A stretch of 64,000 nt of DNA from Mangrovicoccus algicola. Lineage in GTDB: Bacteria > Pseudomonadota > Alphaproteobacteria > Rhodobacterales > Rhodobacteraceae. The translations under genes and the position numbers were made by a program. Every line of letters begins with the position of its first letter. Position 1 is the stretch's first letter. Location of the stretch: contig NZ_JACVXA010000011.1 of the NCBI RefSeq assembly GCF_014903745.1, forward strand, positions 1 through 64,000, read 5' to 3'. The notes below the pieces were generated by a model that ran no database searches, was not told the DNA's origin, and saw only the letters and a list, made by a program, of their open reading frames with translations. Shown here in pieces: positions 18,967-21,255 of this stretch.

Positions 18967-19437
18967 TCAGGCGGCTTCGGCCATTTCCCGGGCCACGATC
19001 CGCTCGACCTCGTCGAGGGGGACATTGGTCACCACCTTGGGAATGTCGAGAACCAGCCGCGCCTGCACCTCGCCGTGAAGCTCCTTGCGCAGGGTGGACA
19101 GGACCGGTCGGCTGGCGAGGATGACGAGCGTGTCGAACCGGCCCGCATGGGCGGACTTGTAGAGCATGTCCGCCAGATCGGTTGCGAAGCGTTCCTTCTC
19201 CAGCTGGTGCCAGTCGGTTTCCTCCACCGAGGAGCGCTGGACCGAGGGGCCGTCGTTGAACCGCCCCGCGCGGTCGGTCTTCCAGTCGCCGGATGGCGGG
19301 TTCTCCTGCTCCTCCTTGGAGATCACCGCCAGGTTCATGTCGATCTCGTCGCCGACATTGCGCAGGAACAGCGCCTTCTCGCCATCCGCGATCAGCACCC
19401 AGGCGCCCTGTTTCAATCCCGAATTGCGTTCGGCCAT
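18967..19437 (-). CDS. Host attachment family protein (PF10116-like)
   Basis: A 156-residue soluble protein that matches the host-attachment family, with [15 protein letters not shown] at the N-terminus, [20 protein letters not shown] in the middle and [18 protein letters not shown] near the end. The name comes from Agrobacterium work; the fold resembles eRF1 domain 1-like proteins and the biochemical role is unknown. The first 25 bases overlap the 3' end of the DUF4112 gene, so the two are probably translated together. Confidence 0.88.
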
Positions 19438-19802
19438 CTCGTTTCCTCCTTCTTTTCATGCATGCGGGCCATTTCCCGCGACAGGAGCGCCACGTTCCGG
19501 CGGTTCGCCTTGAACGCCAGGTCGAAGACATCCCCCGCCAGCGGGACGGAGCCCAGCACCGTGTCGAGGCCGACATTCAGCCCCATCCGCGCCAGCACCC
19601 GCTTGCGCGCTCCGAGGCGGTGCGCCTCGTAGATCACGTAGAGCGACGGCAGGGCGGTGGCCGCGTCGCCGATCCCCGGGACCAGCAGCCCGATCAGGGA
19701 ATCCCAGCCGAAGCGGATGCCGAAGAGGCTGAACCGCGCATCCATCAGCGCGGCGATCCGCTCGGCCCGGGCCAGCCGCCCTGCGCGCTCAGCGTCTTGC
19801 AA
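19413..19802 (-). CDS. DUF4112 family membrane-associated protein
   Basis: A 129-residue protein with the DUF4112 core, including [20 protein letters not shown], a hydrophobic helix, [21 protein letters not shown] and a basic C-tail. The function is unknown. The only start that includes the whole domain is TTG at 19802, which overlaps the end of yqaE by 14 bases; the next ATG (19745) would cut into the domain. The chain of overlaps yqaE, DUF4112, host-attachment protein suggests one transcript. Confidence 0.82.
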
Positions 19803-19947
19803 TGATCCACACCGCGTGGACGATGCCGGGGATATAGCCCAGCAGGGTCAGCAGGATGTTGAGCCAGAAGGCTCCGCGCAGGCCGACCTGCAGCGCGACG
19901 CCCAGCGGCGGCAGCAGGATGGCGATGACGATCCGCAAGAAATCCAT
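19789..19947 (-). CDS. YqaE/Pmp3 family small membrane protein
   Basis: A 52-residue protein of two membrane helices (IVIAILLPPLGVALQVG and [21 protein letters not shown]), the signature of the UPF0057/Pmp3 family. These proteins are often induced by salt, cold or envelope stress and affect membrane potential in yeast. The ATG at 19947 has AGGTGG upstream. It begins a three-gene overlapping chain and lies about 100 bases downstream of the candidate small RNA on the same strand. Confidence 0.9.
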   Translation of the reverse strand: MDFLRIVIAILLPPLGVALQVGLRGAFWLNILLTLLGYIPGIVHAVWIIARR

Positions 19948-20047: not shown

Positions 20048-20119
20048 AAAAAAAATGGCCGAGACGAAGCTCGGCCAAAGTCCAACAGGGAGGTAGAAGA
20101 AGGCCAAAACCTTCATCTG
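20048..20119 (-). ncRNA. Candidate Hfq-type small RNA with anti-Shine-Dalgarno seed
   Basis: Read on the minus strand, the segment has three parts. First is a five-base hairpin GAAGG/CCTTC (20099-20114). Next is an unpaired pyrimidine-rich stretch TTCTACCTCCCTGTTGGA (20081-20098) whose CCTCCC complements ribosome-binding sites. Last is a perfect eight-base stem CTCGGCCA/TGGCCGAG (20056-20077) followed by eight Ts, a textbook intrinsic terminator. A sigma-70-like promoter lies just upstream. No coding frame with a start and ribosome site fits. Rhodobacter CcsR-type RNAs with CCUCCUCCC loops are a known analogy; homology is not shown. Confidence 0.65.
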
Positions 20120-20124
20120 TCGCC

Positions 20125-20153
20125 GACATATGCGGCCCATCCCTGCCTTTCAA
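20125..20153 (-). promoter_or_regulatory. Predicted promoter of the candidate small RNA
   Basis: On the minus strand TTGAAA (20148-20153) and TATGTC (20125-20130) are separated by exactly 17 bases. Transcription would start near 20118-20120 and give an RNA of about 70 bases ending at the T-run. Confidence 0.55.
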
Positions 20154-20195
20154 GGTGAAAATTTCCGCAGTTGCGAAATATCGGCGGATACGGGC

Positions 20196-21107
20196 CTATT
20201 CGCTCGCGCCTGCAGAAATCTGGGCATTGCGGCGATAGGTGGCGATCTCTTCCATCACGAAGTCGCGGAAGGCGGCGATGCGCTTGGACTGGCGCAGTTC
20301 CTCTGGATAGGCCAGATAGACGGGCACCTCGCCGCTGTCGACATCGGGCAGCACCCGCACCAGGCCGGGCACGTCATGGGCGACGTAATGGGGCAGCACG
20401 CCGATGCCCAGATGGTTCAGCACGCCCTGAAGGACGCCGAAGTAATTGTTCACCGTCAGCAGGGACGGCATGTCCTCGGCCATCAGCGCCTGCACCATCC
20501 GCAGCCCGGCCATCACCTGGAAGCTGGTGGCGTTCTGGCAGATCAGGCGGTGGCTGCGCATGTCGGCGCGGGTCACGGGGGTGCCGTATTCATCCAGGTA
20601 CTGCTGGGTCGCGTAGAGCCGCATGTGCACCGCCATCAGGCGCTTGCGGATCAGGTCGGCCTGGGACGGTTCCTTCATGCGGATGGCGACATCGGCCTCG
20701 CGCATCGGCAGGTCCAGCACCCGTTCCTCCAGCATCAAGTCGATCTTGAGATCGGGATATTTCTTGTAGAGCGCGGGCAGGCGGGGCACCAGCCAGAGCG
20801 AGCCGAAGCCCGTGGTGGTGGTCACGCGCAGCTCGCCGAAGACCTCTTCCTCGCTGTCGCGGATCCGCGCGGCGGCGGCATCGAGCCGCTTGACCATCGC
20901 CGAGGTCGCATCGAACAGCAACTCGCCCTGCTCGGTCAGGATCAGCCCGCGGGCATGGCGGTGAAACAGCGTCGTGTTCAGCGACGTCTCCAGCGCCCGG
21001 ATCTGGCGGGAGACCGCCGATTGCGACAGATGCAGGTGCTCGCCCGCGTGGGTGAGGCTCCCCGCATCCGCAACTGCGTGGAAAATCCGTAGCTTGTCCC
21101 AGTCCAT
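20196..21107 (-). CDS. LysR family transcriptional regulator
   Basis: A 303-residue LysR regulator. Its N-terminal winged helix-turn-helix is MDWDKLRIFHAVADAGSLTH and HLSQSAVSRQIRALE. A periplasmic-binding-like effector domain follows (from about residue 92). The effector is unknown. The start at 21107 has GGGCAGGATC upstream and gives the standard LysR N-terminus; the longer frame is rejected. It is divergent from the acyltransferase at 21256 with 148 bases between, so the LysR protein may act on either gene. Confidence 0.93.
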   Translation of the reverse strand: MDWDKLRIFHAVADAGSLTHAGEHLHLSQSAVSRQIRALETSLNTTLFHRHARGLILTEQGELLFDATSAMVKRLDAAAARIRDSEEEVFGELRVTTTTGFGSLWLVPRLPALYKKYPDLKIDLMLEERVLDLPMREADVAIRMKEPSQADLIRKRLMAVHMRLYATQQYLDEYGTPVTRADMRSHRLICQNATSFQVMAGLRMVQALMAEDMPSLLTVNNYFGVLQGVLNHLGIGVLPHYVAHDVPGLVRVLPDVDSGEVPVYLAYPEELRQSKRIAAFRDFVMEEIATYRRNAQISAGASE

Positions 21108-21255
21108 GATCCTGCCCGTGTTGATCGTACCAAACCTGACATGGGCTGCCGAGGATTGCAATTATGAGAAATCAGCTTTGCGCCTGGACTATGGCCCCCT
21201 TGCCGCAGGAGGCGTCGCGCTGATATTCAGCCTGTCACCCAGACGAGGACAGCCC

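Follow-up and report, generated by a model that had tools for sequence, protein, structure and literature searches.

The window, i.e., the whole stretch of 64,000 nucleotides that was analysed, contains a gene for a LysR-type regulator, followed on the same strand by the elements of a small RNA gene and, on the purL side, by three inserted genes. The features at the locus are as follows:

20196..21107, minus strand: LysR-type regulator, VtlR/LsrB orthologue (Pfam HTH_1 and LysR_substrate; class-wide tree); a longer form with a TTG start at 21161 is possible
20160..20190, minus strand: place of the LysR-type operator, proximal half GCAACTGCGG in register (comparison with 58 relatives)
20126..20154, minus strand: RpoH-like promoter CTTG-N18-CATATGT (pattern comparison over lysR-linked loci)
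20153-20148, minus strand: -35 element TTGAAA, followed by 17 bases
20130-20125, minus strand: TATGTC, 3' of the 17-base spacer
20048..20119, minus strand: small RNA of the SorY type, about 72 nt long, 5' end assigned from the mapped Rhodobacter sphaeroides SorY start, with which it is in register
20095..20118, minus strand: 5' hairpin AGA-U-GAAGGU(UUUG)GCCUUC-U-UCU (fold and covariation of the arms)
20095-20086, minus strand: exposed anti-Shine-Dalgarno stretch TACCTCCCTG (sequence)
20078..20095, minus strand: unpaired conserved core of 18 nt, UACCUCCCUGUUGGACUU, with the anti-Shine-Dalgarno motif CCUCCC (identical to SorY in the Rfam alignment)
20048..20077, minus strand: intrinsic terminator, perfect 8-bp stem and eight Ts (sequence and fold)
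18967-19947, minus strand: yqaE (Pmp3), a DUF4112 gene and a baeRF_family12/Host_attach gene, between the RNA and purL

The 5' hairpin consists of a 6-bp inner stem (GAAGGU/GCCUUC) and a 3-bp outer stem, while in the terminator positions 20077-20070 pair with 20063-20056 and the Ts occupy 20055-20048. The predicted fold of the RNA is more stable than that of shuffled sequences (z = -3.55) and leaves the core mostly unpaired. The promoter-like boxes, the 5' hairpin, TACCTCCCTG and the perfect terminator thus all lie at the minus-strand positions given in an earlier sequence-only reading of this DNA. Its proposal of a small RNA, about 72 nt long, with its own promoter, an exposed anti-Shine-Dalgarno segment and a terminator is borne out by sequence and by strong conservation, and the 5' end that it predicted (20119) is exactly the one given by register with the SorY start.

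Identity of the small RNA

At the gathering cut-offs of Rfam, a search of the whole window recovered a tRNA only and no match at the small-RNA locus. Under an E-value threshold the RNA matched SorY (RF02651) with 53.6 bits (E 2.7e-10) and SorX (RF02784) with 37.4 bits. The gathering score for SorY is 111 bits and was passed in one of 296 Rhodobacteraceae genomes, that of R. sphaeroides (G051:C4:1632645-1632727), where the match agrees with the published SorY start at 1,632,642 of strain 2.4.1 (PMC6238624). There, SorY sits between a LysR gene and purL, whose products are 76% (LysR) and 82% (PurL) identical to those of the window, and this gene order is found again in the window with the additional genes on the purL side. 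The LysR gene is located 5' of the RNA in all 29 best relatives, and most of the 30 best matches to the SorY model likewise lie 3' of the same LysR gene. In the Rfam alignment, the core UACCUCCCUGUUGGACUU and most of the terminator, including GGCCGAG, are identical to SorY; the promoter pattern is of the RpoH type, with the predicted start in register. Because the RNA has the same place and the same sequence features, we regard it as the SorY orthologue, and since it scores below the cut-off we use this term and do not call it a member of RF02651 as curated. It is one further SorY, a kind of RNA already known.

The sequence-only reading had linked the RNA to a stress cluster around yqaE. Among the relatives compared, the yqaE insertion occurs only in the Mangrovicoccus congener (L009), and the cluster is therefore a local neighbour; the conserved neighbour is lysR. 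Searching with the yqaE protein gave matches mainly in unrelated bacteria.

Conservation, structure and promoter

A match to the window RNA was found in 290 of 296 Rhodobacteraceae genomes, and the element is more than a product of chance. Covariation of the 5' hairpin was assessed in 30 loci that had been picked for a similarity lying mostly in the 3' half. The hairpin arms paired with their own partners at a mean of -14.4 kcal/mol vs -9.65 kcal/mol for arms swapped between species, and none of 5000 permutations was as good as the true pairing. Since the sequences of the arms vary widely (GAAG/CTTC, AGTG/CACT, ATGAG/CTCAT and others), their good pairing reflects compensatory changes. The CCUCCC core is near-invariant in the alignment, which is not independent evidence since the loci were partly selected on it. 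The core UACCUCCCUGUUGGACUU with CCUCCC is likely the seed of the RNA.

An open frame starting at 20140 traverses the RNA and might suggest an encoded small protein. An in-frame start codon lies inside the transcript in only 24 of 61 loci, however, and the distance from the core to the end of the frame varies without pattern from 15 to 402 nt. Open frames are not common to the relatives; a coding frame was therefore rejected, and we consider this reading extremely improbable.

The pattern CTTG-N18-nnTAnnT is present in 57 of 60 lysR-linked loci, the window included, where shuffled sequences yielded a mean of 0.2. We take this to be the alphaproteobacterial RpoH promoter type, and it fits the locus in place of the sigma-70 promoter that had been claimed. 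SorY of R. sphaeroides is reported to depend on RpoHI/RpoHII, to be bound by Hfq and to limit malate import (PMC5036791), and to be transcribed directly, without processing (PMC8307010). These data bear on the idea, also raised in the sequence-only reading, that the RNA is released from the lysR 3' end. In its strict form, the RNA would be the mere terminator or 3' UTR of lysR, at most a processed 3'-end RNA, and its conservation would reflect termination. The RNA does follow lysR directly and in the same orientation, and its relative SorX is a 3'-UTR product (PMC6238624). Yet the promoter that separates lysR from the RNA is conserved in those 57 of 60 loci, the covarying hairpin is not needed for termination, and the SorY start was mapped as that of a primary transcript without processing (PMC6238624, PMC8307010). 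With a conserved promoter and a primary, unprocessed counterpart, release from the lysR 3' end is the less likely origin, and we judge the 3'-UTR reading very unlikely.

The LysR partner and the class-wide comparison

The orthologue group of the window LysR was found in 83 of 142 genomes, sampled at about one per family of Alphaproteobacteria. A tree of 103 proteins separates it from its paralogues with a support of 100/100 and places inside it the LysR proteins adjoining ar15 (AbcR) RNAs. Judged by this tree, the window LysR is an orthologue of VtlR/LsrB. In Agrobacterium tumefaciens, abcR1 and abcR2 directly follow vtlR, and VtlR activates abcR1 through a box of the form GCAT-N3-TG-N3-T (PMC7486931). 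AbcR1/2 of Sinorhizobium meliloti are located between lsrB and SMc01226; abcR1 is driven by LsrB and abcR2 by RpoH1, and the anti-Shine-Dalgarno motifs of the RNAs repress transporter mRNAs (PMC8844928). Among 25 ar15 loci fetched from Rhizobiaceae by a search centred on this family, 17 are situated 3' of the LysR orthologue. The window LysR (20196-21107, minus strand) contains a single cysteine, at position 191. It has no evident counterpart of C144/C273, the redox cysteine pair reported in LsrB of A. tumefaciens (PMC11975290), and is therefore not expected to sense redox state through such a pair.

Most SorY and abcR genes are preceded by an operator of the form CGCAT-N7-ATG. Of the 58 SorY loci, 36 contain GCAT-N7-ATG, against a mean of 2.1 and a maximum of 7 after shuffling, and its spacing to the promoter hardly varies among them. 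The motif is also present in 13 of 17 lysR-linked ar15 loci (shuffle mean 0.9, maximum 4). The consensus is CGCATagCGGccATGctGCa upstream of Rhodobacteraceae SorY and CGCATGGCTGnCATGCA upstream of lysR-linked ar15, and the box upstream of sorY in R. sphaeroides 2.4.1 reads GCATGGCGGCCATG. The published VtlR form with TG is present in only 4 of 58 SorY loci because Rhodobacteraceae mostly have GG at this place. In the window and in the congener the distal half of the operator is degenerate and only the proximal half, GCAACTGCGG, is kept in register, which makes LysR control of the window copy uncertain. Such control may have been lost, or the copy may have been partly replaced; a second copy in the genome, described below, keeps the distal half.

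To look beyond the family, 70 loci were compared, with the window and a single further Rhodobacteraceae locus among them. In 44 of these, CCTCCCTG follows the LysR orthologue on the same strand at a distance of no more than 700 nt, usually as part of ACGTCTCCCAGACGTGAAGCCTCCCTGTT with a terminator after it. The class-wide RNA found 3' of the LysR orthologue (loci L162-L229) has a hairpin, ACGTCTCCCAGACGT, in which CCC is exposed; GAAGCCTCCCTGTT and a terminator come next. None of the Rfam small-RNA families reached its cut-off for this RNA in the loci scanned. A covariance model (R1) was built from 34 of the class-wide RNAs, without Rhodobacteraceae. Although it comes only from other alphaproteobacterial families, this model recovered the window RNA with an E-value of 7e-9; the second-best match in the window had 0.056. 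R1 matched at E 0.001 or better in 81 of 142 genomes. Among the 57 genomes with strong matches, 44 have one no more than 1 kb 3' of LysR and on its strand, and 2 more have one within 6 kb. This count is partly given by construction since R1 was trained on linked loci; the model also picks up copies unlinked to LysR. According to our analysis, a related un-named RNA follows the LysR orthologue in most of the alphaproteobacterial families sampled.

The ar15 model (RF02345) had no match in a class-wide sample of roughly one genome per family, nor in the genome studied here at E 0.001. R1 gave only weak terminator matches on ar15 loci, and hence AbcR and SorY share place and operator, while common ancestry of the RNAs is not claimed. 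We somewhat favour the view that these loci represent an ancient class-wide module, composed of a VtlR/LsrB-type LysR gene and an anti-Shine-Dalgarno RNA that it would control. The local forms would be SorY in Rhodobacteraceae, AbcR in Rhizobiaceae and, in most other families, the un-named RNA, which has two anti-Shine-Dalgarno sites (ACGUCUCCCAGACGUGAAGCCUCCCUGUU).

In the whole genome, R1 detected exactly four sites below E 1e-6, which are the window RNA and one site each on contigs C73, C117 and C91. The second SorY-like RNA (G000:C73:31215-31294) lies away from lysR and has the canonical operator GCATGACGGGCATGC; it is flanked on one side by an ion-channel-like gene and on the other by a gene containing RTX-like repeats. 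The C73 copy might be the working SorY of this genome and the window copy a decaying duplicate: C73 combines its operator with a long 5' hairpin like that of other SorY RNAs and scores 59.7 bits with the SorY model vs 53.6 in the window, where the hairpin is shortened and the distal operator half degenerate. The window copy nevertheless retains a stable hairpin along with the core, the terminator and the promoter, and congener L009 carries an almost identical RNA part. It therefore appears constrained, and we regard decay as unlikely. The C117 site (G000:C117:11077-11144) is a SorX orthologue with 69.5 bits, above the Rfam cut-off, and lies directly 3' of an OmpR-type response regulator gene, as in R. 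sphaeroides. SorX was rejected as the identity of the window RNA, which stays below the SorX cut-off (37.4 vs 46.6 bits) and lies 3' of lysR, the SorX of this genome being the C117 copy. The fourth member (G000:C91:98736-98789), with the core CCTCCCTGTTGACCTGG, is the best of the four with R1; the gene 5' of it encodes a CBS-domain (CorC/HlyC-like) membrane protein.

Proposed function and comparison with known systems

We are confident that the best joint explanation is a SorY orthologue that would be stress-induced via an RpoH-type factor, modulated by LysR, bound by Hfq and directed against mRNAs of uptake systems. An RpoH-type sigma factor would transcribe the window SorY under stress, and the LysR protein may modulate it, in most relatives through the CGCAT-N7-ATG operator. 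LysR and RpoH would then be two inputs on one promoter, which S. meliloti splits over two RNA genes. Hfq probably binds the RNA, by analogy with SorY; as a SorY it would also be expected to respond to singlet oxygen and to repress takP. The single-stranded ACCUCCCUGUUGGAC would pair with ribosome-binding sites of uptake-system mRNAs (TRAP or ABC transporters) and lower their translation, an action reported for SorY in the case of a malate transporter and for AbcR in that of ABC transporters. The RNA is most likely a stress-induced RNA of the Hfq type that blocks ribosome-binding sites of transporter mRNAs; its expression and targets in this organism we infer. In Rhodobacterales, the circuit would correspond to the one formed by VtlR/LsrB and AbcR in Rhizobiaceae.

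In a crude pairing screen whose regions were not fully matched, the seed paired somewhat better with regions upstream of 30 DctP-type genes than with 83 controls (-18.2 vs -15.8 kcal/mol), which is suggestive; the strongest control was the antisense of the RNA locus itself. The best match lies beside a gene for an enolase-type sugar-acid dehydratase and is not evidently takP; for this reason, and because of the incomplete matching, we do not use the screen as evidence.

Several named RNAs resemble the window RNA. The CcsR1-4 RNAs of Rhodobacter have a similar C-rich seed of the anti-Shine-Dalgarno type and a similar stress context; the four are homologous to one another and share a transcript with ccaF1 (PMC8307010). 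The seed CCUCCUCCC, named for them in the sequence-only reading, is absent from the window RNA, which gave no CcsR match; kinship with CcsR was rejected, and the RNA is a relative of SorY and SorX. SuhB/mmgR (RF00519) shares with the window RNA the order CCUCCCU...GACUU followed by a terminator, but its match of 26.4 bits is below the cut-off of 41, and it occupies a different place in the genome. SorX (RF02784) likewise has the ACCUCCCUGUUGGAC core and then a terminator; it derives from the 3' UTR of an OmpR-type gene, whereas the window RNA lies 3' of lysR. With R. sphaeroides SorY (RF02651), the window RNA has in common the LysR neighbour, the nearby purL, the 18-nt core, the terminator, the RpoH-like promoter and the 5' hairpin. 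It differs in a shorter arm of the 5' hairpin, in the degenerate distal LysR box and in the yqaE-DUF4112-baeRF genes inserted before purL.

In the literature searched, we did not find SorY named together with AbcR or LsrB in such a sense, nor the core sequences in the texts, and the link between LysR, SorY and AbcR appears unreported there; the primary SorY and SorX papers lay outside this search and may mention the lysR neighbourhood. The comparison joins the Rhodobacter RNA SorY, the AbcR RNAs known from rhizobia and Brucella, and the LysR-type protein VtlR/LsrB, three subjects that this literature treats apart. A candidate protein controlling SorY and a candidate operator emerge from it, and it indicates that dozens of alphaproteobacterial families have in common a type of RNA beyond the reach of the Rfam cut-offs. 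A regulator described as 'unique to Rhizobiales' in a heading of one recent paper (PMC11975290) is also extended to the whole class. The RNA sequences of AbcR1/AbcR2 (ar15, RF02345) are not recognisably homologous to the window RNA, but the two are alike in their place 3' of the orthologous VtlR/LsrB gene, in their anti-Shine-Dalgarno seeds and, for most SorY relatives, in an operator of the same form; the same LysR switches on the AbcR RNAs in plant- and animal-associated relatives.
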